A stretch of DNA of 47,494 nucleotides. It comes from Anabaena subtropica FACHB-260 (lineage in GTDB: Bacteria; Cyanobacteriota; Cyanobacteriia; Cyanobacteriales; Nostocaceae). The stretch is taken from positions 1-47,494 of the forward strand of contig NZ_JACJRF010000043.1 in assembly GCF_014697105.1 (NCBI RefSeq). Direction: 5' to 3'. The notes below the pieces were generated by a model. The model searched no databases. It was given only the letters and a program-made list of their open reading frames with translations, and was not told the origin of the DNA. Below, one piece after another: positions 1,431 through 43,493 of this stretch. Both the position numbers and the translations under genes were made by a program. Numbering within the stretch: the first letter of the stretch is position 1; each line of letters opens with the position of its first letter.

Positions 1431-3182
1431 TCATGATGCTAACAATTCAGGCTGACATAGAAAACTATTAATAGTCTGACGAATTTCGGCGATAGTTTGT
1501 AATTGATAATCCCCTGTTTCTTGGACTTGAGCTAAAGATTCTCCAATTCCTTGCAGCTTTTGCCTTAACTCATCCACGCAATCCTGGATTGGTTGTAATG
1601 CTTCTTGATAGAGATTTATTCGACTCCAGCATTCAGCAGTTGCTGTTTTTAGGGAAAGTAAGTCAGACTCTATAGTTTTCAGTTCTTGCTGCTTTTCTTC
1701 GAGGTCGTGGGCTTGATTATCAATCATCCCTTGATCTAGCTCAATAGCAGAACGCATTTGTTCAATTTCTCTTTCCAGTTGCTGTAATTCCTGGGATTGT
1801 TTTTGTCGCTGAGTTTCGATTTGTAACAGAAGTGGGCTAAAATCAACGCTGTTATCTTCTTCGGTATTGGCAACAGGTTGCCCTTGTCGCTTTAGCAGTA
1901 TATTTTGGTGTTGCTGAATCAACTTTTGCCTAGCTAACAAATTGCGCCTTTGTCCGACCAAAGTTTGATTGAGCATCTGATACAGGTCTTGTTCATCTGC
2001 CAATTCCATCTGCAAATTAACTAAATCTTGCTCGGATGCTTGGTTAATTTTTTGTTGCAGTTCGTCTATGGTTTGTTGTTTATATGTCAGTTCTTGTTCC
2101 TGGTCATGAACAAAGCTAGAATCTATTCCCAACTTATCTGTTAAGTCTTGAATGATCTTTTGTAATTCATCTAAGGGCATTTTTTCTAGCGCTTGGACAT
2201 CAACTTTCTGGTTAGGCATCACGTTACCAGAAGTAGCAGCCAGAGAATTAATTTGTTGATATAAAGCTTCTTGAGATTGTAACTGCTCTTTTACTATACG
2301 AATATGTTCTTCTTTGCCTACAAGAGAGGCTGTATTCACTTTTAATTGAGCAGTTTGCTGTTGTAAAGAATCTTGTGCTTGTTTTAATGAATTTTGGCGA
2401 TCGCTGTATGTTTGTGCCAGCTTATCAGCTTCTTCTTGCTTTTGATTAACTAAAGTTTTTTGTTGTTCTAGATTTTGCCAATGGGGATTAAGAGTAGCTT
2501 GCTGTTTTTCGATTAATTCAACAGCTAGATGTAGATGTTCGCGCACTGTTTCTGTAGGAGCAATGCGAGTAGACAAGCGATCAAGTAATTCACTCATCGC
2601 CTGACTTTGTGATGCGTCCAAAACATTACCTTCTTGCAAACGCTCCTCTAGGCGACGTTGCTCACCCCGCAGATGCTCCCAAGCTCCTTCTAATTCTTGA
2701 CGATTACGTTCAATTTCTCCTTGTAATTGATCAATTTGTTCGCGGGATGTGTCCACTTCCTGTTTTTGGGCTTCCAGGCGTTGAAACTCATCTTCCATTT
2801 CGTGCAACTGTTCCAGTCGCGCCTCCATATCCATTTCCCGGCGATTCAACTCCTGCGCCTGGAATGTCAGAGACTCTTTCCATTGGTCAATTTCATCTTC
2901 TTTGAGCTTATATTTTTCCAACTGGCGGGAAAAATTTTGCAAAATGTTAACGAGCGGCCTGCCCGCTTCTTGAATCCTCTGCACTTGACGATTTGGCGTG
3001 AGTTCTACCAAAACCAGTGCGCCATCATTTAATTTGCTGGCTTCCTCGGCTGCGATTACTTCTTCCGACACAGTACTCCAATTCTGGTCGGTTCGCTGAC
3101 AAGCTAGCAGTTTTAATTCGGTTTTGGAACTACCACTCAGTAAGCCGCCTTTCTGCTTTTGTACTTCTGCTAAATACAGCAC
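1431..3182 (-). CDS. hmpF: HmpF, coiled-coil pilus motility taxis protein
   Basis: The 583-residue protein has an N-terminal globular part of about 90 residues (MLYLAEVQKQKGGLLSG...), followed by almost continuous coiled coil rich in Q, E, L and K, with heptad-like patterns from about residue 90 to the C-terminus. There is no signal peptide and no membrane segment. The start motif, length and divergent position next to the hmp chemotaxis-like genes match HmpF of Nostoc punctiforme. That protein is known to localise dynamically to cell poles and to be needed for type IV pilus activity and directional hormogonium movement. The gene is transcribed away from hmpA across a 363-bp intergenic region. 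Identification rests on architecture and context, since coiled coils resemble each other in composition. Confidence 0.85.
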   Translation of the reverse strand: MLYLAEVQKQKGGLLSGSSKTELKLLACQRTDQNWSTVSEEVIAAEEASKLNDGALVLVELTPNRQVQRIQEAGRPLVNILQNFSRQLEKYKLKEDEIDQWKESLTFQAQELNRREMDMEARLEQLHEMEDEFQRLEAQKQEVDTSREQIDQLQGEIERNRQELEGAWEHLRGEQRRLEERLQEGNVLDASQSQAMSELLDRLSTRIAPTETVREHLHLAVELIEKQQATLNPHWQNLEQQKTLVNQKQEEADKLAQTYSDRQNSLKQAQDSLQQQTAQLKVNTASLVGKEEHIRIVKEQLQSQEALYQQINSLAATSGNVMPNQKVDVQALEKMPLDELQKIIQDLTDKLGIDSSFVHDQEQELTYKQQTIDELQQKINQASEQDLVNLQMELADEQDLYQMLNQTLVGQRRNLLARQKLIQQHQNILLKRQGQPVANTEEDNSVDFSPLLLQIETQRQKQSQELQQLEREIEQMRSAIELDQGMIDNQAHDLEEKQQELKTIESDLLSLKTATAECWSRINLYQEALQPIQDCVDELRQKLQGIGESLAQVQETGDYQLQTIAEIRQTINSFLCQPELLAS

Positions 3183-3545: not shown

Positions 3546-4751
3546 ATGCAGGGAAATTTACAGGAAATTGACATTCGCAGTATCCTGCAATTGATTGAAT
3601 TAGGGCAGCGAACTGGACAACTTTTGATCGAAGCTCCTAGCTTATACAAGTGTGATACAAGCGTTCAAGAATATTTAGGGGAGCCTGATTATTTGAAGAA
3701 CTGCCAACAACAATATTGGCTGATCTTTTTTCTGAATGGTCAAATTATTTATTGCCAAAAAGGAGATGATAATTTGTTGCGGATTGATGATTATTTACGT
3801 CATCATCGCGTAGAAATGCGTCTAGACAAAGAACATCTAGCTGATTTAGGTAAACTAAATTCTTCAGAATATGGCTATCTTTGGCTGTTATTAGAGACAA
3901 ATCTTATTAATCCTAAGATATTTGAAAATATTATCTACCGCTTAGTTTGTGAGACATTGTTTGACTTGTTGAGATTAAATCAAGGTAGCTTTATCTTTTG
4001 TCAGGATACAGCGATCGCACCCCAATTAACTAGTTGGGAGATTTCGCCATTAGTCACTCAAATCACCCAACAATTACAAGAATGGCACCAGCTATCTCCC
4101 TATATTCAGTCTCCAGAACAATTACCAGTCCTTGCTGATAAAGTTCACTTACATTCATCACTTCCAGAAGCCACCATGAATAAACTCAAGCAATGGGCTG
4201 ACGGGAAAACCCCCTTACGGCAACTGGCGCGTCATCTCAACCGAGACATTTTGACAGTCGCCAAAGTCATTTATCCTTATGTACAGCAAGGTTGGTTAAA
4301 ACTAACCTATCCAGAAACAAGTAATTCTCCGACAAATATCCATGTAGTAGGGAATAAAAAGAAAGCAAAAATACTATGTATTGACGATACAACCAGTATT
4401 TGTAAAACTGTAGAGTCTATTCTGCAAGCACAAGAATATGAAGCGATGGGCTACGCTCTACCGGAGATAATCGCTTTAAGCAATCCCCTAGAAGCTCTAA
4501 GTCTAATTTTTCAACTCCAGCCAAATTTAATTTTATGTGACATCGCTATGCGGGAACTCAATGGTTATGAGATTTGTTCCATGCTGCGCCAATCTCAAGT
4601 ATTTCGGTATATACCGATGATTATGTTGAGTAGTAAAGATAAATTTATAGATCAAATCAGAACTAGAATGTACGGAGCAACAGACTATCTCACAAAACCT
4701 TTTCATGATCATGAATTACTCATGCTCATCACAAAATACATAAATGTCTAG
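3546..4751 (+). CDS. hmpA: PatA-like response regulator HmpA (PATAN + REC)
   Basis: The first ~260 residues match the PATAN (DUF4388-like) region of PatA-family regulators, beginning MQGNLQEIDIRSILQLIE, and are followed by a C-terminal receiver domain (about residues 275-401). In the receiver the acidic pair is in ILCIDDT, the phosphoacceptor Asp is in LILCDIAM and the conserved Lys is in DYLTKPF. PATAN-REC proteins act as output regulators in cyanobacterial pilus chemotaxis and in heterocyst patterning. As first gene of the rightward hmp operon it matches HmpA by position. The receiver carries an apparent 8-residue insertion around residues 300-310, created by a small inverted repeat (separate entry). 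Whether phosphorylation still works cannot be told from sequence. Confidence 0.85.
   Translation: MQGNLQEIDIRSILQLIELGQRTGQLLIEAPSLYKCDTSVQEYLGEPDYLKNCQQQYWLIFFLNGQIIYCQKGDDNLLRIDDYLRHHRVEMRLDKEHLADLGKLNSSEYGYLWLLLETNLINPKIFENIIYRLVCETLFDLLRLNQGSFIFCQDTAIAPQLTSWEISPLVTQITQQLQEWHQLSPYIQSPEQLPVLADKVHLHSSLPEATMNKLKQWADGKTPLRQLARHLNRDILTVAKVIYPYVQQGWLKLTYPETSNSPTNIHVVGNKKKAKILCIDDTTSICKTVESILQAQEYEAMGYALPEIIALSNPLEALSLIFQLQPNLILCDIAMRELNGYEICSMLRQSQVFRYIPMIMLSSKDKFIDQIRTRMYGATDYLTKPFHDHELLMLITKYINV
4441..4476. repeat. small dispersed repeat inserted in frame in hmpA
   Basis: AAGCGAT at 4441-4447 and ATCGCTT at 4470-4476 are perfect 7-bp inverted arms around a 22-bp GC-richer core containing GGGCTACGCT. 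The encoded residues (MGYALPEI) interrupt what would otherwise be a standard receiver stretch running from YEA into IALSNPLEAL. Size and frame-neutral insertion (about 24 bp) fit the small dispersed repeats (SDRs) described in Nostoc genomes. The family assignment is inference. Confidence 0.5.
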
Positions 4752-4940
4752 GGACTGAAGATTAGAGGCTAAGGACTAGGGGCTAGTCAAGAAATAAAAA
4801 CTTTCTGTCTCCTACTTTTCCCAACTAGAACCTCTCAGGCAAAAGCCCACGATGAAGAAATAAAAACGTTTCTTCTCTAGCCTCCAAGCTCTAGCTTCTA
4901 ACCTCCAGTCTCTAGCCTTTAATCCCTAGTCCCTATTTAG
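4749..4940. repeat. heptamer-based inverted repeat between hmpA and hmpB
   Basis: The left arm (about 4749-4786) repeats units such as GACTAGG and GGCTAG, and begins at the hmpA stop codon. The right arm (about 4872-4938) carries the complementary units (CTAGCCT, CCTAGTC). The arms also share an AAATAAAAAC block, so the region can fold as a long imperfect hairpin in RNA. It could act as a processing or attenuation element that uncouples hmpA from hmpB; that is inference. The remaining ~180 bases before hmpB hold no gene. Confidence 0.55.
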
Positions 4941-5103
4941 ACTTGTTGATTCCATAAAAAATCGAGTAAAAAATGTTATCACAGAATGAACCTAACTCCA
5001 AGACAAAGTATTATCTAGACAATTAACCAAAAAAATAGAATTAATTTATACAGTAATTTTTGTGGGGAGATCAGGGAATGTTCCAAACAGGAACGTCTAC
5101 ATC

Positions 5104-5110
5104 AGGAGGT
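5104..5110 (+). promoter_or_regulatory. strong Shine-Dalgarno sequence of hmpB
   Basis: AGGAGGT lies 12 bases before the hmpB ATG at 5123 and fixes that start. It is stronger than anything visible before hmpA or hmpE, which suggests that the small CheY-like protein is made in excess over the other Hmp proteins. Confidence 0.6.
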
Positions 5111-5122
5111 AGATAGCCATTT

Positions 5123-5488
5123 ATGAGTACAGTTCTGATTGTGGAAGACAGTCTTGCACAGAGGGAGATGATTACAGACCTCCTGAAAGCCAGTGGCTTA
5201 ACAGTCACCCATGCGACTGACGGATTAGAAGCATTAGAGGCGATTAAAGTAGAACCTCCCGATCTAGTCGTCTTAGATATTGTCATGCCCAAAATGAATG
5301 GCTACGAAGTTTGTCGTCGATTGAAGTCAGATCCGAAAACCCAAAACGTCCCTGTAGTCATGTGTTCTTCTAAAGGAGAAGAATTTGACCGCTACTGGGG
5401 GATGAAACAAGGTGCGGATGCTTACATAGCAAAACCGTTTCAACCAACCGAATTGGTAGGAACAGTCAAACAACTACTGCGAGGATAA
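5123..5488 (+). CDS. hmpB: CheY-like response regulator HmpB
   Basis: This is a single receiver domain of 121 residues with the complete set of receiver residues: acidic pair E8/D9, phosphoacceptor D52 (LVVLDIVMP), Ser in MCSS near 82 and K104 in AKPF. There is no output domain, so it should work by protein contacts, receiving phosphate from HmpE. It corresponds to PilG/PilH-type regulators of type IV pilus chemotaxis. It is followed by hmpC after 13 bases, so both are surely co-transcribed. Confidence 0.88.
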   Translation: MSTVLIVEDSLAQREMITDLLKASGLTVTHATDGLEALEAIKVEPPDLVVLDIVMPKMNGYEVCRRLKSDPKTQNVPVVMCSSKGEEFDRYWGMKQGADAYIAKPFQPTELVGTVKQLLRG

Positions 5489-5501
5489 GGATGAAAACAA
5501 C

Positions 5502-6032
5502 ATGGTCAGCAAACCGGACTTTTTAAATGGCAGTGGTCAAGATCATTTCCGTCCTGAATTACAAGTAGAAAGTCCCGAAGGTGAGTTACATTTACGGTTT
5601 TACATTCCCTCGCATCAGGAGTTTGCACTACCCGCAACTGGTATTCGAGAGGTGATGGAACTAAGCCCCGATAGAATCACCCCGATTCCTAATGCTTCTC
5701 CTTTACTTTTGGGTACTCTAAATTTACGAGGTCGAGTAATTTGGGTGGCAGATTTGGGTCAATTTCTAGGAGAAGCAACTCCTTTAAACACAGACCGAGC
5801 AGAGATTCCGGTGATTGCTGTTCAAGAGCAAGACACAACTGTGGGTTTAGCAGTGGACGCAATTGGTGGTATGGATTGGCTAGATGTACAAAACCTCATG
5901 CCACCTACAAACACACCGGATACTATGGCTCCCTTTTTGCGGGGAGAGTGGTTATTAGAGCCTAAAAACAACCAATCTCTAAGACTACTCGACCAAATGG
6001 CAATTTTGCGGAGTGCAAGGTGGGCAGGATGA
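5502..6032 (+). CDS. hmpC: CheW-like adaptor HmpC
   Basis: The 176-residue protein contains a single CheW domain. It shows the typical [12 protein letters not shown]-like opening strands, the GIREVMEL segment, [23 protein letters not shown] (residues ~65-87) and the later TVGLAVDAI strand. CheW links the receptor HmpD to the kinase HmpE in the cytoplasmic array. The N-terminal ~25 residues are polar and probably flexible. It lies 13 bases after hmpB, and its TGA is followed 17 bases later by the hmpD ATG. Confidence 0.88.
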
Positions 6033-6049
6033 AATTGGGAGGGGAGCAA

Positions 6050-8971
6050 ATGGCAGCAAGTATAGACGAATACCTCGAAAAATATCAGCAGGCTTGTACA
6101 GCCTACGCGCAACAAAAATATGAAGTTGCCGCTAGTTTAGTTGATCTGGTCGTGCAGAATGTGCCAGATGATCCTAACTGCCATTTACTACGGGGTCACG
6201 TCTACTATGTTTTGCAACAGTTTGATGTGGCAACCGGAGAATACGAAAAAGTAATGGAGTTGACGGATGACTTTGAGCTGATTGGCTTTGCCCAAAATGG
6301 TCTGGAAAATATTAGCCAATATCAACAATCAGTTCCCGAACAGGCTGATAGTGTGGACAATGATGAGTCAATAGATTTAGGTGCATTTGCATTTAAGGAA
6401 GAAGATTTAGATTTGGGGTCAATTGGAGATTTTGATAGCAACTTTGATTTAAATGCTTTAGAAGAACAGCAATCATTAGGAGATACAGATGAATTGTCTT
6501 TAGATAATCCATTTGAAACGCCTACAGATAGCATTTCTTTTAATAAAATCCCAGAATCTGTAGAATCCATCCCAGCCTTTAGTGATGATCCTTTTGCCTT
6601 AAATATTGAGCAGACAGAAGCAGAGCAGAATGCAGACTCAGACTCTCACCACGGGCAGGAAGCATTAGAGTTACCTCTATTTTGGCAAGAAGAGAGTCTT
6701 GACCAACCACAGACTGATAATAATTTATTAGATAGTGGCAAAGATTCGTTAAGCGATGACCAAGGGTTGGTCATAGACCATCGCCAAAGTAATATAGATT
6801 CACCTTTTGCAGAATTTGACACAACAAACAGTTTTATTGGGCAAGCTTCTGTAACTGAATTCTTAACAAAAAATAGTCAAGAAGCAAGTACTCAAGACTT
6901 GGAATTAGTCAAAAATAGCCAAGAAAGTCAAAATTCATCAACTGGTAAAGAAGAACTCAGAAATGGTGCAATTCCCTTAGAAAAGTTACCTAACGATAGT
7001 CAAGATAATCTTGCTCATTCTGATTCAAATAATTGGTTACAAGAAATAGCTTCTCAAGAAGAAATATTAGGATCATCAGCATCTGTTAATAGTGATTTTA
7101 CTTTGAAATCACAATCATCTCCTAATAGTATCAAAGAAGAGATGGGTGACTTTGATGTTGATGAAAGCTTTGATTTTGAAGCATTTGAATCGGCTTTTGG
7201 GTCAGAAAGTGCGGCAATAGATGAAGATACAGGCGTTATCTTCAATAAAGAAAATTCTAAAAGTAATATCGAGTTTTTAGACGACTTTGACGAATTTGAC
7301 GATTTAGGTAATATTCCTGGATTTGATTTGGCAGAAGCAGATTCCAGCTTCAGTGATGTCATGCTTTCTAGTTCTACGGAAATCAATAGCACCCCACTGA
7401 GCAAAGTTGCAGAAAGTACTGCAAATGCTACAGACCGGGACGAGGAGCTATTTAGCATCACTGGCTCTCAAGAAGCAGTACCAATCTTTAGCCAAACAGA
7501 TGCTCCCAAGGTAGAAGCTAACGTCAACGTCGAACAAGGATGGTTAGCGCCATTAGAAAATGCTTCCCTAGACAAAAAACCTTGGGTAGTCGCTGGTACG
7601 GTTGGGGTTTTCTCTGCTTTGGTTGTTGCCACAGTTGGCTTTACCGCCACTAACTTTTCTCCTCCCGAACAACGGGAATCTTTACGCAATACAGGTTGGG
7701 CGATGTCTTTGGCAGCCGGGATTACAGGTTTTGCCGCAGCCGCTTTCATGGGGAACGTCACCCTCAAGCAAATGCGCCGCACCACCAAGGATTTACAAGC
7801 ACAATTTGATGCCGTTCGTCAAGGCAGTTTGAATGTGCAAGCCACGGTGTTTTCCGAAGATGAACTAGGGCAGTTGGCGGCTGGCTTCAATGAAATGGCG
7901 CGGGTAATTTTTACTACCACCAATGAAGCCCAACGCAAAGCTGATGAACAAGAGGAAGCCAAAGAAAACCTCCAACGTCAAGTAATTCGCTTACTGGATG
8001 ATGTAGAAGGGGCGGCTAGAGGTGATTTGACAGTACAAGCGGAAGTGACAGCCGACGTACTGGGAGCTGTCGCCGATGCCTTTAACCTGACAATTCAAAA
8101 CCTCCGGGATATTGTCCAGCAGGTGAAAGTGGCTGCTAAGGAAGTAACCAAAGGTGCAACTAATTCGGAAACCTTTGCTAGAGCCTTATCTAGTGATGCC
8201 TTGCGTCAAGCCGAAGAGTTGGGAGTCACCTTAAATTCTGTGCAAGTGATGACTGATTCAATTCAACGAGTGGCGGAAGCAGCACGGGAAGCGGAGAAAG
8301 TGGCGCGCGATGCTAGTACGATCGCTCTCAAAGGTGGAGAAGCTGTAGAAAATACTGTGGCGGGTATTTTGGAAATTCGGGAAACTGTAGCGGAAACTAC
8401 CCGGAAGGTGAAACGCTTGGCGGAATCTTCTCAAGAAATTTCTAAGATTGTCGCCTTGATTTCGCAAATTGCCTCCCGTACTAACTTACTCGCACTCAAC
8501 GCCAGTATTGAAGCGGCGAGAGCGGGAGAGGCCGGAAGAGGGTTTGCCATCGTAGCCGATGAAGTCCGCCAGTTAGCGGATAAATCAGCCAAATCCTTAA
8601 AGGAAATTGAGCAAATTGTGATGCAAATCCAGAGCGAAACAGGCTCAGTAATGACCGCAATGGAAGAAGGTACACAACAGGTAATCAAAGGCACAAAATT
8701 GGCAGAAGAAGCCAAGCGATCGCTGGAAAATATCATTCAAGTAGCGAATCGCATCGATAGTTTGGTGCGCTCAATCACCAGCGATACCGTAGAACAAACA
8801 GAAACATCCCGCGCCGTCGCTCAGGTAATGCAATCGGTGGAATTGACAGCTCAAGAAACTTCTCAGGAAGCACAACGAGTTTCCGGCGCTCTGCAAAACC
8901 TAGTTGGTGTGTCCCGCGACTTGATTTCTTCCGTAGAACGTTTCCGCGTGGAAACAATGGAAACAAGGTAA
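6050..8971 (+). CDS. hmpD: methyl-accepting chemotaxis protein HmpD
   Basis: I choose the ATG at 6050 (973 residues) because GGAGG at 6038-6042 stands 7 bases before it. The N-terminus (about 1-100) is helical and TPR-like. Residues about 100-505 are an acidic, Ser/Asn-rich linker. Two hydrophobic segments follow (about 511-535 and 546-568) with only a short loop between them, so there is no large periplasmic sensor. Then come one or two HAMP-like units (about 570-695) and the signalling coiled coil, whose hairpin tip [20 protein letters not shown] lies near residue 820. It is the PilJ-like receptor of the hmp system. With no periplasmic domain, the input is likely cytoplasmic or from membrane partners. 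That is inference. Confidence 0.88.
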
Positions 8972-8976
8972 TTAGT

Positions 8977-9068
8977 CAAGAGTCCAAAGTCCAAAGTTCA
9001 AAGTTTACCTAATTAACTATTGACTAATGACTGTTGACTGTTGACTGTTGACTACTGACTATTGACTA
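8977..9068. repeat. heptanucleotide tandem repeats before hmpE
   Basis: Two runs lie between hmpD and hmpE: AAGTCCA-like units (about 8980-9005), then ACTGTTG/ACTATTG units (about 9017-9068) reaching to within eight bases of the hmpE ATG at 9076. They replace any recognisable ribosome binding site. They are the same STRR class found before hmpA. Confidence 0.6.
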
Positions 9069-9075
9069 AAAAACT

Positions 9076-12000
9076 ATGCTACCGGAACAACAACAGAGGA
9101 TTTTAGGTTACTTTATTGAAGAAGCCAGAGACCACCTGAATACAATCGAACAGGGGTTACTCAATCTTCAGAGTACCTTAAACGACCCGGAAATGATCAA
9201 CGAAGTTTTCCGGGCGGCTCACTCCATTAAAGGGGGAGCAGCAATGCTTGGCTTAACTAGCATTCAGCACACCTCTCATCGTTTAGAAGATTGTTTTAAA
9301 GTTCTCAAAGAGAATCCGATTCAGGTTGACCAAAAATTAGAGTCGTTATTTCTTGGCGTTTCCGATACCCTGAAGGCGCTATTAGAACAGTTAAGCGGGC
9401 CGTTCGGTTTATCGGAAGAAGTTGCTAATACTTTGATGTCGGAAACAGAGCCAGTTTTTCAATGGCTACATGAGCATTTGGAACAACTCGTACAAAAAGG
9501 TGGTGCTGGCGAAGTTGGTGATCATGCAGTCAATCAACCAAACCCAGCAGATAGCGTGGGTACACTCACAGAAATCTTCTTTCGCCAAGATGTTTCAACT
9601 ACAAAAGAAGAAACCCACCAAACAACTCCAGTTCTACCAACATATTCCCCAGTTGTTGCGACAGCTAATGATCAGTGGAGCGAGTTTCAAGTCCAAGTGT
9701 TACAAACACTCAGGGAAATGTTGCAATTATTTAAGCAACCAGCAACATCAGCATCTAGGCAAGATTTACAAGACTGCTGTAATCAGTTAGTCAAACTGGG
9801 AAAAACATGGAATTTGCCTAACTGGTCTAATTTATGCAAAGCCGCAGCCAGCGCGATCGCTAATCAAGAAAATACATATCTCACTTTAGCTAAAATCGTC
9901 ATTACGGAAATTAAACAGGCCCAAGAATTAGTCCTGCGAAGCAGGGAAACCGAAATCACAATAAGTCATCGGCTAGAAGCACTCTGGGGCTTTCCAGAAA
10001 TGCCATTGTTAGAAGTAGCTCAAAATTTACTCGGTGACGTTCCAACTTCTGTCACTCAATCATTTATAGCACCAGTAATTTATGAACCTAAATCTACCAT
10101 TACTGAAAATAGTGAACCTCTGATTGAATCACCAACAGATAGCGTAACTAGCCTAACTGAAATATCTGAGCAACTTTATCCCCAGACAGTAATAGCAGAA
10201 AAAGCTGAAACTGAAGATATTCTATTTAATAACGAAGACCATACATCACAGAGTAGCAGCAAAATCCACACCCACGGACCAGAAGTAGGATTAGCTGAAT
10301 TAAATACGCTTGCTGATTTGTTTGAAGGTGAGACACCAGAACTAGATGAAACATGGCAACAAGAAGAAATTCTAGATATCACAGATGGTAATGACTTGGG
10401 AGTAGATATCAGTGACAGTAATAATGAAGAAAATGATAATGATATCGCTGATTTCTTATCCCTAGATGAAGATAAAAAAGAAATACCAACTACTTCCCAT
10501 AATACAGAAGATTTAAGCTTATTATTTGGTGAAAACTTCTTAGGTAAAGATAATTTAGAATCACAAGATTTCTTTAAAGCTCCTATTACTGCTAGTGAAA
10601 TATTACAAGAAAATAGAGAAAAAGCTGGCAGTCTACCAGATAATTCTGATGTTATAGAGGATTTATTGGCATTAAAGCTTGATGAAATTATACAGTCTGA
10701 CAGTAAGGTAAATCTGCCAGAGGTCTCAAGTAATTTTGATGATTTATTCTTGGATACTGATATAAATACAGATAGTTTAGAAGAAATTAAACTACCTAAT
10801 GTTATAGAATCTAAGCTAATAAATATACCAGAAAGTTTATCCTTAAATAATCTATTTAATGATTTGGAAGAAAGTACACAATTATCTTCAGACGAATCAG
10901 AAATTAGCGATTTATTTGATTTACCACCAGCAACAGTATTAGGTTTTGATCAAACAGAAAATGATTTGGGAAATTTCTGGAACTCAGAAACTGAAGTCGA
11001 ACCAGATCAAAGATTAGAATCTATCTTAGAGCAAGATATAGTTCAGGCTTTAGAGGAAAGTTTGTTTGCAGCTGCGTCTTCCGGTGAAATTTTTGGTGAA
11101 AATCAACAGCCTACATCATCCTTGGCGGAAAATTTAGAACCAAAAGATTTAGATATTCAGCAGTTAGATTTGGTATTCTCATCAGAGATTGAAAACGAAT
11201 TGTTTGGAGAACTTACAGAAAATGATTCCAGTATTCATAGTATTAGCGATGAACTCCAGTCACTGGGGGACTGTCGGGAACTTTTTCTACCGGAAAATCA
11301 TGGTTTTTCACAACAACCAGAAGTATTAGATTTTATTCCCGAATTTACTACCCAATCCCAAGAATTATCCTCTATAGATTCATCCCAGCCATTTGCTGAA
11401 TCGGAGGTTGATTTATTTGACGATATTTATGAAAATAGCCATTCTTTAGTAATAGAAAGTATAGAAAATTCAGAAAATAATAACTTATTCGCCACTACAA
11501 GCAGATTAAATTTACAACATCCAGAAACAGTTATTGATTTTTCTGATGCAACAGTTGCAGAAACTAGTGAACTTGAATTAGATGATGATTTATCAGCGTT
11601 AACCAATGAGTTGATAGATATTGCTGTTGAAGAAATTGATGATTCTGGTAGTTTAGAAACAGTTATTGATTTTTCTGATGTAACAGTTGCAGAAACTAGT
11701 GAACTTGAATTAGATGATGATTTATCAGCGTTAACCAATGAGTTGATAGATATTGCTGTTGAAGAAACTGATGATTCTGGTAGTTTAGAAACAGTTATTG
11801 ATTTTTCTGATGTAACAGTTGCAGAAACTAGTGAACTTGAATTAGATGATGATTTACTGATTACAGATTCAGATTTATCAGCGTTAGCCAATGAGTTGAT
11901 AGATATTGCTGTTGAAGAAACTGATGATTCTGGTAGTTTAGAAACAGTTATTGATTTTTCTGATGCAACAGTTGCAGAAACTAATGAACTTGAATTAAAT

Positions 12001-15000
12001 GATGATTTACTGATTACAGATTCAGATTTATCAGCGTTAGCCAATGAGTTGATAGATATTGCTGTTGAAGAAACTGATGATTCTGATAGTTTAGAAACAG
12101 TTATTGATTTTTCTGATGCAACAGTTGCAGAAACTAATGAACTTAAATTAGACGATGATTTATCAGCGTTAACCAATGAGTTGATAGATATTGCTGTTGA
12201 AGAGACTGATGAACTTGAATTAGATGATGATTTATCAGCGTTAACCAATGAGTTGATAGATATTGCTGTTGAAGAGACTGATGATTCTGATAGTTTAGAA
12301 ACAGTTATTGATTTTTCTGATGTAACAGTTGCAGAAACTAATGAACTTGAATTAGATGATGATTTATCAGCGTTAGCCAATGAGTTGATAGATATTGCTG
12401 TTGAAGAAACTGATGATTCTGATAGTTTAGAAACAGTTATTGATTTTTCTGATGTAACAGTTGCAGAAACTAGTGAACTTGAATTAGATGATGATTTATC
12501 AGCGTTAACCCTAGATGAGTTAATCACGGAAACTCATGACTTCACAGATTTTGAAGTTGAGGAAAGTACTCCACCTACTCCAGAATCTAGTGAATTGATG
12601 CTAAGTCTGACAACTGATGAAAGTCCAGAAACCATAAGTCCTGAAGTCTCAGAAGACATAGCAGATTTATCATCGCTTTTAGTAGATATAACTCCAGCAT
12701 CGGAAATTGTAGCAGAGGCTGCTACCCCTACAACAGTAGAGATACCAGAGTCAGTAAGCTCGGATACCTATATTCAAGATGAATTTGCTGATCTAGAAGC
12801 ATTGTTAGAAGTAGAAGTGACATCCAGTGCTAATAGTGCTTCCATAGCAGCAAATGACTTTGCAGCCTTAGAAGCGCTGCTGGGTGAAGATAATCTTGAG
12901 ACAGCGACTGATGAGCAGCAACCTGCTGTAGCAAAAAATAGACAAACTAATTCTAGTATTCCTACAACATCATTCGACTTAGGAGATGAATTTAGTGATC
13001 TGGAGAAACTCTTAGCAGAAGCAGACCAAACCATCTCCCTCTCATCGCCAACTAAACAAACCATAGGCAAAACTCCACGTAATTCTAATCGGCGGACGGC
13101 GAGATTTGAAGAAACGATGAAAGTGCCGGTCAAGCAGTTGGATGAAATGAGCAATTTGGTGGGTGAATTGGTAGTCAACCGCAACACCTTAGAGCAGGAT
13201 CATGAAAAACTGCGACAATCATTAGATAACTTGCTGGTTCAAGTGCAACAGCTCTCAGATGTGGGCGCGAGGATGCAGGAATTATATGAGCGATCGCTCT
13301 TAGAAGCTTCTTTATTAGCAAGTCGGAAAACTAGAGAACCTGTCTACGAAGCACCCGATGCAAATAGCGATCGCGGTTTTAGTGAATTAGAAATGGATCG
13401 CTTCACCCCCTTCCACACCTTGTCTCAGGAAATGATCGAACTCATCGTCAGGGTGCGGGAGTCAGCCAGTGACATTGATTTTGTCACCGAAGAAACCGAA
13501 CGAGTCGCTAGACAATTCCGTCAAGTCACGACTCAACTGCAAGAAGGGTTGACAAAGGCGCGCATGGTGCCATTTTCTCAGACGATTGACCGCTTGCGGC
13601 GAGGGGTGCGCGACAATGCTATCAAGTTTGGTAAACAGGTGGAATTAGTGATTGAAGGTGGCGATACCCTGATTGACAAGATGATTTTGGATCATCTCAA
13701 TGACCCACTCACGCATATGCTCAACAATGCGATCGCTCATGGTATCGAAACTCCAGAAATTAGGGAAGCAGGCGGTAAACCACCAGTGGGAACCATTACC
13801 ATCCGCGCCTTTCACCAAGGAAACCAAACTGTAATTTCTGTGGGTGATGACGGTGCAGGTATCGATACAGAACGCATCAAAGCCAAAGCTGTTAAATTGG
13901 GCATGATGACACCAGAACAGGCAAAAACCATTTCTCGCCTGGAAATCTATGACCTACTGTTCCAAGCCGGTTTTAGTACCAAAGATGAAGCTGATGAAAT
14001 TTCTGGACGGGGCGTGGGAATGGATGTGGTACGTTCCGAAATCAGCGAAATTCGCGGGGCGGTGAATACAGATTCGACTGTTGGTAAGGGAACCACCTTC
14101 ACAATTCGCCTACCGTTGACCTTAAGTATTTGTAAGGCTCTGTGCTGTGTCTCCGATAAAGCCCGGATTGCCTTCTCGATGGATGGTGTGGAAGATACCC
14201 TAGATATACCAAGCAAAAACGTCCAACATAATGCCGATGGACAATCATTCATTTCTTGGCGAGATACAGTCTTACCTTTCCGACCGTTGAAAGACCTACT
14301 AACCTTCAATCGTCAACTCGGTCGCGGTAATGTCTACGGAGGTACTAGAGATGATGATATGATTTCCGTCGTCGTCGTGCGATCCGGTAATACTTTAATA
14401 GCTCTCCAGATTGACCAAGTATTGAGTGAGCAAGAAATTGTTATTAAACAATTTGAAGGGCCAGCACCTAAACCAATAGGTGTAGCCGGTGCTACAGTCT
14501 TGGGTGATGGTCGTATCATGCCCATAGCTGATGTACTGGAAATTATCGATATCTTCCAAGGACGGATGTCCAAACACGCTGGTGGCACACTTTGGCAACA
14601 GACACCGCCAGTGGCGATCGAAATCCCGGCTGTGAAGATTGACCCAACTGTACTAATTGTGGATGACTCCATCACAGTCCGAGAGTTGCTATCGCTCACT
14701 TTCAACAAAGCAGGTTATCGCGTTGAACAAGCTCGTGACGGTCAGGAAGCTTGGGACAAACTCCGCTCTGGTCTACCTTGCGATATCGTCTTCTGCGACA
14801 TCGAAATGCCCCGTTGCGACGGACTAGAGTTGCTCTCACGTATCCAAAAGGACTCCACGCTCAACCACTTACCTATTGCTATGCTCACCTCAAGGGGTGC
14901 GGATAAACACCGACAAATGGCAATTCAACTCGGTGCTAGTGGTTACTTTACCAAACCTTACCTGGAGGAAGCTTTGTTAGAAGCCGCAGTGCGGATGCTG

Positions 15001-15036
15001 AAAGGTGAGAAATTAGTTAGTCACAGTAACGCTTAA
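9076..15036 (+). CDS. hmpE: hybrid CheA histidine kinase HmpE (1986 residues)
   Basis: Domains in order: N-terminal HPt with phosphorylatable H49 in AAHSIKGGAAMLG; a second helical HPt-like segment about 195-310 without such a His; an acidic linker to about 1340 that includes tandem repeats at about 817-1145; the CheA dimerisation helices from MKVPVKQLDEMSNLVGELVV (~1348); the ATPase with N-box LTHMLNNAIAHG (~1547), G1 box GDDGAGID and GRGVGMDVV (~1645); a CheW-like domain (~1690-1840); and a C-terminal receiver with D1908 (FCDIEMP). It is the PilL-type kinase of pilus chemotaxis, phosphorylating HmpB and perhaps HmpA and its own receiver. Most of the size excess over ordinary CheA is linker. 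It ends the operon before a strong hairpin. Confidence 0.9.
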   Translation: MLPEQQQRILGYFIEEARDHLNTIEQGLLNLQSTLNDPEMINEVFRAAHSIKGGAAMLGLTSIQHTSHRLEDCFKVLKENPIQVDQKLESLFLGVSDTLKALLEQLSGPFGLSEEVANTLMSETEPVFQWLHEHLEQLVQKGGAGEVGDHAVNQPNPADSVGTLTEIFFRQDVSTTKEETHQTTPVLPTYSPVVATANDQWSEFQVQVLQTLREMLQLFKQPATSASRQDLQDCCNQLVKLGKTWNLPNWSNLCKAAASAIANQENTYLTLAKIVITEIKQAQELVLRSRETEITISHRLEALWGFPEMPLLEVAQNLLGDVPTSVTQSFIAPVIYEPKSTITENSEPLIESPTDSVTSLTEISEQLYPQTVIAEKAETEDILFNNEDHTSQSSSKIHTHGPEVGLAELNTLADLFEGETPELDETWQQEEILDITDGNDLGVDISDSNNEENDNDIADFLSLDEDKKEIPTTSHNTEDLSLLFGENFLGKDNLESQDFFKAPITASEILQENREKAGSLPDNSDVIEDLLALKLDEIIQSDSKVNLPEVSSNFDDLFLDTDINTDSLEEIKLPNVIESKLINIPESLSLNNLFNDLEESTQLSSDESEISDLFDLPPATVLGFDQTENDLGNFWNSETEVEPDQRLESILEQDIVQALEESLFAAASSGEIFGENQQPTSSLAENLEPKDLDIQQLDLVFSSEIENELFGELTENDSSIHSISDELQSLGDCRELFLPENHGFSQQPEVLDFIPEFTTQSQELSSIDSSQPFAESEVDLFDDIYENSHSLVIESIENSENNNLFATTSRLNLQHPETVIDFSDATVAETSELELDDDLSALTNELIDIAVEEIDDSGSLETVIDFSDVTVAETSELELDDDLSALTNELIDIAVEETDDSGSLETVIDFSDVTVAETSELELDDDLLITDSDLSALANELIDIAVEETDDSGSLETVIDFSDATVAETNELELNDDLLITDSDLSALANELIDIAVEETDDSDSLETVIDFSDATVAETNELKLDDDLSALTNELIDIAVEETDELELDDDLSALTNELIDIAVEETDDSDSLETVIDFSDVTVAETNELELDDDLSALANELIDIAVEETDDSDSLETVIDFSDVTVAETSELELDDDLSALTLDELITETHDFTDFEVEESTPPTPESSELMLSLTTDESPETISPEVSEDIADLSSLLVDITPASEIVAEAATPTTVEIPESVSSDTYIQDEFADLEALLEVEVTSSANSASIAANDFAALEALLGEDNLETATDEQQPAVAKNRQTNSSIPTTSFDLGDEFSDLEKLLAEADQTISLSSPTKQTIGKTPRNSNRRTARFEETMKVPVKQLDEMSNLVGELVVNRNTLEQDHEKLRQSLDNLLVQVQQLSDVGARMQELYERSLLEASLLASRKTREPVYEAPDANSDRGFSELEMDRFTPFHTLSQEMIELIVRVRESASDIDFVTEETERVARQFRQVTTQLQEGLTKARMVPFSQTIDRLRRGVRDNAIKFGKQVELVIEGGDTLIDKMILDHLNDPLTHMLNNAIAHGIETPEIREAGGKPPVGTITIRAFHQGNQTVISVGDDGAGIDTERIKAKAVKLGMMTPEQAKTISRLEIYDLLFQAGFSTKDEADEISGRGVGMDVVRSEISEIRGAVNTDSTVGKGTTFTIRLPLTLSICKALCCVSDKARIAFSMDGVEDTLDIPSKNVQHNADGQSFISWRDTVLPFRPLKDLLTFNRQLGRGNVYGGTRDDDMISVVVVRSGNTLIALQIDQVLSEQEIVIKQFEGPAPKPIGVAGATVLGDGRIMPIADVLEIIDIFQGRMSKHAGGTLWQQTPPVAIEIPAVKIDPTVLIVDDSITVRELLSLTFNKAGYRVEQARDGQEAWDKLRSGLPCDIVFCDIEMPRCDGLELLSRIQKDSTLNHLPIAMLTSRGADKHRQMAIQLGASGYFTKPYLEEALLEAAVRMLKGEKLVSHSNA
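11524..12510 (+). repeat. 132-bp coding tandem repeat in hmpE
   Basis: Units begin with GAAACAGTTATTG at 11524, 11656, 11788, 11941, 12094, 12298 and 12430. Spacings are 132, 132, 153, 153, 204 and 132, so the base unit is 132 bp (44 residues). Two units have a 21-bp insertion (residues LLITDSD) and one is followed by a 72-bp partial copy. The last copy breaks down near 12510. Copies differ at only a few positions, which points to recent duplication. Each unit encodes ETVIDFSD, ELELDDDLSAL and ELIDIAVEETDD, so it is strongly acidic with regularly spaced hydrophobic residues. Confidence 0.92.
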
Positions 15037-19079: not shown

Positions 19080-19745
19080 AAATTACCTCTTTGATATTTT
19101 TGAGAATTTACTATTTAGTGGATGCTATCTACAAATGTAAAAATCGTTTTCCAGGTTTCTAATTAGTGTCTATCCATGAGAATCCTTGGAAGATTATTGA
19201 TTATTACTATTGGGATAGATGCCTTCAAATACTCTCAGCATCAGAGCAAAAATGCAAGGACAGTTAAGACAGTTAAGACCGTTAAGAAATTAATAATTAA
19301 TTTGTATTGATAGTTGATTTTTTCATAAGTATTAATTAATTAATACTTAATTCTTTGTGAAAAAGAATCTTACCTAGACAACTTGGTAAAAGAAAAAATC
19401 TGATGATGGGTTACAAACTCGAATATAAATTTTGGCGTTTAACCACCCTGTAGCTTAATTGACCGTGAAGAGAATGCACATTACAGTTCAAATGACTATA
19501 AGGTATTATTGAGGACAATTAGCCGCGACTTTGCAATAGAGATGCACTGTCACAGTAATCTTGGAAAAATCTAAGTTTTCTCTCCGGGTAGTAAGAAACC
19601 ATTACACTATAATTTCTTACTACCCAAATCATTAAATCAAGCTATTGACTGTCTAGCATATTGATCAAATAGGTCAAGACTAATCATAAAATCCTGCTAC
19701 CAAGAGAATTGTTAAGTCTATCCTTTGTCCCAATATACTGCTAAC
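19080..19745. other. 666-bp non-coding region with tandem repeat and long hairpin
   Basis: No gene is apparent. Three imperfect copies of ACAGTTAAG lie in tandem at 19260-19286, and an AT palindrome rich in TTAATTAA follows at about 19329-19345. A perfect 13-bp hairpin stem, GGGTAGTAAGAAA (19586-19598) with TTTCTTACTACCC (19613-19625), encloses a 14-base loop. The hairpin lies 121 bases downstream of the small ORF at 19746-19949 and could end its transcript, although no T-tract follows on either strand. Confidence 0.55.
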
Positions 19746-43378: not shown

Positions 43379-43451
43379 AATGATTGAATCAAAAAACGCT
43401 TTTATATATAAATCTAACAGGTCATGGTAAAGAGTGGGAGTTGGGGAAGAG

Positions 43452-43493
43452 TAATGAGTAATGAGTAATGAGTAATGAGTGGTGAGTGATGAG
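43452..43493. repeat. heptanucleotide tandem repeat (TAATGAG)
   Basis: Four perfect copies of TAATGAG (43452-43479) are followed by TGGTGAG and TGATGAG. GGTGTGGGG runs continue to about 43510. It lies in the prfB to DUF3285 spacer and is of the same heptamer class as the repeats in the hmp locus. Confidence 0.75.

Follow-up and report, generated by a model that had tools for sequence, protein, structure and literature searches.

How does a histidine kinase of the chemotaxis type come to carry more than a thousand acidic residues, part of them a tandem repeat, between its phosphotransfer domain and its kinase core? The question is raised by hmpE, in a stretch of 47,494 nucleotides from Anabaena subtropica FACHB-260 (assembly GCF_014697105.1, contig NZ_JACJRF010000043.1, positions 1 to 47,494, forward strand; hereafter the window). 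On balance, though with considerable reserve, we take this part of HmpE to be a multivalent disordered arm with a hotspot at which in-frame expansion is tolerated. The features of the gene on which the argument turns are the following.

9076..15036, forward strand: hmpE, hybrid CheA-type kinase of 1986 residues (open reading frame and Pfam).
9100..9396, forward strand: Hpt (P1) domain, residues 9-107, with an HSIKGG box seen by eye (Pfam).
10006..13095, forward strand: acidic linker, residues ~311-1340 (composition).
10255..10392, forward strand: best conserved island, residues 394-439, core GPEVGLAELNTLADLFEGETPELDETWQQEEIL (alignment).
10420..11370, forward strand: nine further islands, mostly acidic-hydrophobic (alignment).
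11523..12515, forward strand: tandem array at residues ~817-1147, made of seven ~44-residue units that vary in length (Tandem Repeats Finder (TRF), unit comparison and genome search).
12763..13065, forward strand: three post-array islands (alignment).
13111..14550, forward strand: CheA core, with H-kinase_dim 1346-1402, HATPase_c 1543-1682 and CheW 1688-1825 (Pfam).
14650..14985, forward strand: C-terminal receiver (REC) domain, residues 1859-1970 (Pfam).

A Pfam domain search of the window proteins at E 0.01 placed Hpt, H-kinase_dim, HATPase_c and CheW in HmpE in the order of CheA, all above the Pfam cut-off, and H49 of the Hpt domain was invariant across the 41 alignment rows. Between residues 107 and 1346 no Pfam family, the P2 domain included, was found at this E value; residues ~200-310 are conserved in the alignment without a named domain, and structures matched by sequence to the N-terminal part were only Hpt chains, over residues ~7-108. 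HmpE thus has the same Hpt, dimerisation, ATPase and CheW-like domains, plus REC, as CheA chemotaxis histidine kinases (that of E. coli and the hybrid CheA-REC kinases found in type IV pilus systems), but differs from them in that Pfam found no P2 domain and in having an acidic linker of ~1030 residues with a tandem array between the Hpt and the dimerisation domain. CheA-type domains are cytoplasmic. The linker of more than 1000 residues (~310-1340) noted in the initial annotation was recovered at residues ~311-1340; its net charge is -0.24 per residue, and the charge-hydropathy plot places it among disordered sequences.

Within the linker, TRF reports an array at 11523-12510 with a period of 132 and 7.6 copies. 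The units start at 11524, 11656, 11788, 11941, 12094, 12298 and 12430, that is with spacings of 132, 132, 153, 153, 204 and 132 bp, in exact agreement with the about seven near-identical 132-bp units, longer by 21 bp twice and by 72 bp once, read earlier from the sequence. Inserts apart, the six full units show 1-7 pairwise differences per 132 aligned bases; the two 153-bp units differ at 4 of 153 bases and the partial seventh unit at 3-7 of 87 from the others. When one unit was used as query against the genome it comes from, all 8 matches fell at C43:11523-12524. The score of the window's unit is 0.93 within its own array and at most 0.71 in other genomes. Spreading of the unit as a mobile repeat is ruled out, the own genome holding it in hmpE only. 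The window genome being a draft of 104 contigs, the exact number of units may be collapsed or expanded by assembly.

The occurrence of the arm in other genomes was followed with HmpE residues 1-310 as query. These match 205 of 217 genomes of the family (Nostocaceae) at E 1e-60, 372 of 388 genomes in a sample of the order at 1e-30 and 163 of 195 in a sample of the class at 1e-40. Many of the N-terminal matches among those listed lie in open frames of 1300-2700 residues, while others, mostly weaker, fall in frames that are short, cut off or probably from other proteins. The long linker had initially been presented as an exception among CheA kinases; as many of the class-sample matches lie in frames of that size, the giant arm is instead a widespread trait of the Hmp system. 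Twenty stretches chosen mainly for their long frames, from other families of the order, yielded 19 linkers (one stretch being incomplete) of 586-1693 residues between anchors, with a charge of -0.18 to -0.26 and repeats of period ≥36 in 8 of the 19. The longest arms measured, 1582-1693 residues with repeats of 45-288 bp, come from three members of a single one of these families (f12, L219-L221).

For the family itself, 100 stretches from the 205 matching genomes (12 of them in the genus of the window), together with 80 named loci and the window, gave 133 distinct loci, with one genome compared per species; outside the genus, short or contig-cut frames were mostly passed over, so that the in-frame share is not an estimate for the family. 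Composition was counted in 121 of the 133 loci; nine whose stretch lacks the kinase core and three with an out-of-frame linker were excluded. In these open, in-frame loci the linker measures 420-1443 residues (median 885), with 23.9% acidic and 2.8% basic residues. Its net charge per residue is nearly constant (-0.211, standard deviation 0.016, range -0.255 to -0.138), and the Uversky charge-hydropathy plot puts 121 of 121 linkers on its disordered side; the composition of the arrays is likewise disordered-like. A tandem array of period ≥36 bp was found by TRF in 76 of the 121 and not in the other 45. Subtracting the arrays brings the median linker length to 743 residues (quartiles 697-761), with 0.196 of the variance in length remaining, the arrays thus contributing ~80%.

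The arrays are not scattered along the arm: in 64 of the 76 loci the start of the best-scoring one lies 450-650 residues from the beginning of the linker. Repeat periods are multiples of three in 130 of 131 cases, the exception being a weak 22-bp repeat of 1.9 copies. What is repeated differs, with 17-22 unit families, depending on the threshold, among 64 arrays compared, one family holding 33; a unit from the middle of an array is best matched by its own array in 50 of 64, with ties in 3. The nearest relative of the window, L039, whose kinase-core DNA is 90.7% identical, has a unit of 108 bp in 19.2 copies, and L040 (Nostoc parmelioides FACHB-3921, L139) has a composite array of 108- and 132-bp units. 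A linker difference of at least 20 residues is seen in 9 of the 15 species pairs with a core identity of at least 97%, where the median length difference is 63 residues overall and 4 once the arrays are set aside. Among chosen pairs only, L069 and L071 (97.8% core identity) have about two and about four unit copies, respectively; L069 is a metagenome assembly (Desmonostoc geniculatum, L149), which also lacks a stretch after the array. The comparison of hmpE across relatives proposed in the initial annotation therefore bears out its picture of a recent expansion and turnover, since linker length is polymorphic between conserved flanking domains and the closest species differ in unit number, length and sequence, with no uniform copy number. 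On the kinase-core tree, the presence or absence of an array changes at least 17 times, as compared with at least 30 changes in each of 100 label shuffles; arrays are thus partly inherited and partly renewed.

Around the arrays, part of the arm is well conserved. Alignments of 41 rows, the window included, for the pre-array part and of 40 rows for the post-array part gave ten conserved islands before the array and three after it, i.e. 13 in the linker, an island being defined by an 11-residue mean identity of ≥0.62, a cut-off of our choice. The best conserved one, at residues 394-439, has no second match in its own genome; the nine that follow it lie at residues 449-469, 473-497, 550-562, 583-601, 603-619, 625-641, 649-674, 698-714 and 740-765, and the post-array islands at residues 1230-1251 (DEFADLEALL), 1254-1276 (DFAALEALLGED) and 1299-1330 (DEFSDLEKLLAEADQTIS). 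Averaged over alignment columns, identity is 0.81 in residues 1-310 and 0.52 in 311-816, falls to 0.22 in the array, and reaches 0.61 in 1231-1335 and 0.90 in 1341-1986. Six linker stretches were sought in the 19 other-family linkers: stretch 399-434 was present in 19 of 19 and the three post-array islands, in order, in 19, 16 and 18, with the caution that these islands resemble each other and their matches overlap. Acidic-hydrophobic cores such as DLF, DLSLLF and DLEALL are common to many islands, and outside the arrays of 48 divergent linkers the motif [DE][LF]xx[LF][LF] occurs 177 times, against 34 in shuffled sequences. Because of these 13 conserved islands, the linker would seem to be more than a spacer or a tether.

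Taken together, the observations suggest how the arm might work. A long, acidic and probably disordered arm would join the phosphotransfer domain to the kinase core, and its short islands, many of them acidic-hydrophobic, would most likely be putative partner sites, each binding weakly and many at once, which may keep receptors, neighbouring kinases or response regulators close to the motility machinery at the pole. Such an arm could let the Hpt domain reach the receiver domains of many targets. At the hotspot, between the tenth and the eleventh island, a resident segment of typically 28-62 residues is repeatedly multiplied and lost in frame, with replication slippage or unequal recombination as the presumed cause of unit gain and loss. 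The length of the arm could then drift within wide limits, and this drift would be tolerated because composition and the fixed islands, rather than the number of residues, are proposed to carry the function.

Several results weigh against this proposal or narrow it. The disorder of the arm is predicted from its composition. Twelve of the 76 arrays lie outside the hotspot. In 11 of 64 arrays the unit is closer to that of another species than to its own array, and L103 and L105, at 99.7% identity, are equal in linker length, so turnover is not fast everywhere. Among the six stretches sought in other families, 453-492 was found in only 5 of 19 linkers and 653-668 in none of the 19; with matches ranging from 19 of 19 to 0 of 19 the islands are apparently of mixed age, some old and others confined to the family. 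The motif counts given above are inflated by the common descent of the 48 linkers. Finally, the units of an array have a pN/pS (ratio of nonsynonymous to synonymous differences per site) of 0.49 (0.0464/0.0939), below the 0.58-0.93 given by a neutral simulation, the value of which varies with the transition weight. The array units are therefore at most weakly constrained.

Copy number might also be adaptive in itself, setting the length of the arm, and with it phosphotransfer distance or array assembly, under selection between lineages or within populations. We regard this as unlikely, in spite of three observations that speak for it: the 9 of 15 closely related pairs whose linkers differ by at least 20 residues, the concentration of arrays in hmpE, and the preservation of the frame. 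As to the second, an array of period ≥36 and at least 2.4 copies lies in the hmpE linker of 38 of the 80 named loci (200 kb), whereas the other 1013 kb of the same loci give 6 TRF rows, of which two overlap. As to the third, of the 124 distinct loci with both linker ends, 121 have an open frame, and the exceptions are due to one run of N and two short indels. Against the idea, a simple polymer estimate, built on a scaling law, puts the effective concentration of the tethered domain at ~37 uM for 743 residues, 20 uM for 1030 and 11 uM for 1443, and going from 743 to 1443 residues would therefore alter encounter rates only about threefold. Moreover, 45 of the 121 loci have no array of period ≥36 by TRF. 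The suggestion that linker length tunes phosphotransfer distance is thus not supported as it was first put; fine tuning by length is possible but, under this model, not compelling.

Nor does the neighbouring receptor gene, hmpD, change along with the arm. The acidic region of HmpD measures 408 residues with a standard deviation of 19 (range 359-460, 81 loci), and its length is uncorrelated with that of the HmpE linker (rho -0.006, n = 73). Being near constant and uncorrelated, it indicates that the expansion is a property of HmpE and not of the cluster's acidic regions generally; an arm length matched to the receptor is ruled out by the same lack of covariation. In the HmpD of the window, [DE][LF]xx[LF][LF] was seen 0 times against 0.28 expected, so that the acidic regions of HmpD and HmpE have no common motif in this respect; [DE][LF][LF] occurs 3 times against 2.1 expected, and only [DE]F[DE] is raised (6 against 1.3).

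In a bolder reading the arm is an evolvable multivalent scaffold. Each array unit would then be an added acidic-hydrophobic binding site and slippage would set how multivalent a signalling assembly at the pole, perhaps a condensate, becomes, so that lineages adjust Hmp clustering by unit number, as an intracellular counterpart of surface periscope proteins. We offer this as a tentative idea with a modest chance of being right. The looser motif [DE][LF].{1,3}[LFI] has a density per 100 residues of 4.52 in 66 arrays and of 3.60 in the rest.

The arm may, at the other extreme, be an inert spacer and its array slippage noise without function, which we consider doubtful. The array itself would fit such a view, with its poorly conserved columns (0.22 mean identity) and a dN/dS (ratio of nonsynonymous to synonymous substitution rates) between units of one array of 0.48 (60 arrays), only somewhat below the neutral 0.58-0.93; the corresponding values are 0.041 for the core, 0.168 for the N-terminal part and 0.33 for the pre-array linker (60 pairs each). 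The arm as a whole fits it poorly, for thirteen islands are conserved in the family and one of these recurs in all 19 other-family linkers, charge per residue hardly varies, and long frames recur across the class sample.

That the array was created or miscounted by assembly is very improbable. The draft state of the window genome would allow it, and among the 133 loci the stretch lacks the kinase core in nine and the linker is out of frame in a further three, one of which has 2121 N in it. On the other hand, of the 37 loci in assemblies with roughly ten or fewer contigs (counts rounded), 28 have arrays, including five from assemblies given as one contig, and the units of the window differ from each other, unlike the product of a pure duplication error. 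The array phenomenon is therefore no assembly artefact, and the objection that the initial annotation had itself foreseen is not borne out. The three out-of-frame linkers all come from few-contig assemblies: L039 and L122 have short indels in single units and L121 the 2121 N. The two frame breaks in L039 and L122 are either real changes or sequencing errors, and may be errors. A pseudogene with a relaxed frame is ruled out for the window and 120 other loci, in which the linkers are open and in frame. A contingency locus, in which frame-breaking changes of the array would switch HmpE off reversibly by phase variation, is scarcely credible, since the indels within the arrays of L039 and L122 that would speak for it may be sequencing errors in the repeat, and with 130 of 131 periods divisible by three the gain or loss of a unit keeps the frame.

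Proteins of variable length are already known from two other settings. Periscope proteins are bacterial surface proteins whose length varies with repeat units (PMC8201768, available portion); like them, HmpE has units highly alike at the DNA level and a unit number that differs between relatives, here species, but they are made of folded, cell-surface domains, whereas HmpE is a kinase of cytoplasmic type with a region that looks disordered by composition. The C-terminal linker of FtsZ is disordered, hypervariable in length and sequence and required for function, and it lies next to a conserved short binding peptide (PMC12607630, in part). By analogy only, the HmpE linker likewise varies in length beside conserved short motifs; unlike it, the FtsZ linker has ~50 residues in E. 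coli and is hypervariable also in composition, and the available portion of that source mentions no tandem array for it. Among the best-ranked open-licence literature matches there was no report of an HmpE arm or of a repeat array in a CheA linker, and the accessible text on Nostoc punctiforme Hmp (PMC10581220) mentions neither array nor arm. If the multivalent, expandable arm is real, a signalling kinase would have one region whose length differs among close species by tens to hundreds of residues, with its catalytic domains and a series of small motifs fixed around it.

The gene row in which hmpE lies includes the following features.

6020..8971, forward strand: hmpD, methyl-accepting chemotaxis protein (MCP) with an acidic region of its own of ~405 residues (Pfam; used as the control for length variation).
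3546..6032, forward strand: hmpA (DUF4388-REC), hmpB (REC) and hmpC (CheW), named by order and domains.
1431..3182, reverse strand: hmpF (NCBIfam NF038350, 776.9 bits against a cut-off of 200).

The kinase gene closes a row that begins with DUF4388-REC, REC, CheW and MCP genes, and hmpF lies upstream in divergent orientation. In N. punctiforme, hmpA-E are Npun_F5960-F5964 and hmpF is Npun_R5959 (PMC10581220, part of the text); the window has the same gene order and fitting domain types, with hmpF identified by NCBIfam, so the name HmpE is well founded, being drawn from gene order, domain types and hmpF and not from the N. punctiforme protein itself. As far as the available parts of PMC12288463 and PMC9239167 go, the Hmp system is reported to control HmpF localisation at the leading pole and, through it, type IV pili; this fits a role of HmpE in a polar assembly without demonstrating one. 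In the HmpD of the window, a weak TPR match below the Pfam cut-off is followed by the ~405 acidic residues and then by HAMP and MCP domains; before HAMP there are, by eye, apparently two membrane helices with a very short loop, and Pfam found no periplasmic sensor domain in this protein.

The hmpE homologue of Nostoc carneum NIES-2107 (L152) lies on a record titled plasmid1, of 553,734 bases. The 12 of 217 family genomes with no match at E 1e-60 are G189, G190, G195, G056, G062, G063, G067, G070, G079, G093, G121 and G204; 11 of them are ≤5 Mb and four are <90% complete. Weaker matches exist in G062, G063 and G079, and hmpE was possibly lost or has diverged in some lineages among these 12.

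Short direct repeats were also seen elsewhere in the window, namely GAGTAAT in 6.4 copies at 43449-43493, a 9-bp repeat in 3.2 copies at 19259-19287, a 21-bp repeat in 2-3 copies at 4875-4935 and, just before hmpE, ATTGACT in 8.1 copies at 9012-9068. At least four heptamer-like words occur in the hmpD-hmpE gap of 13 of 81 loci.

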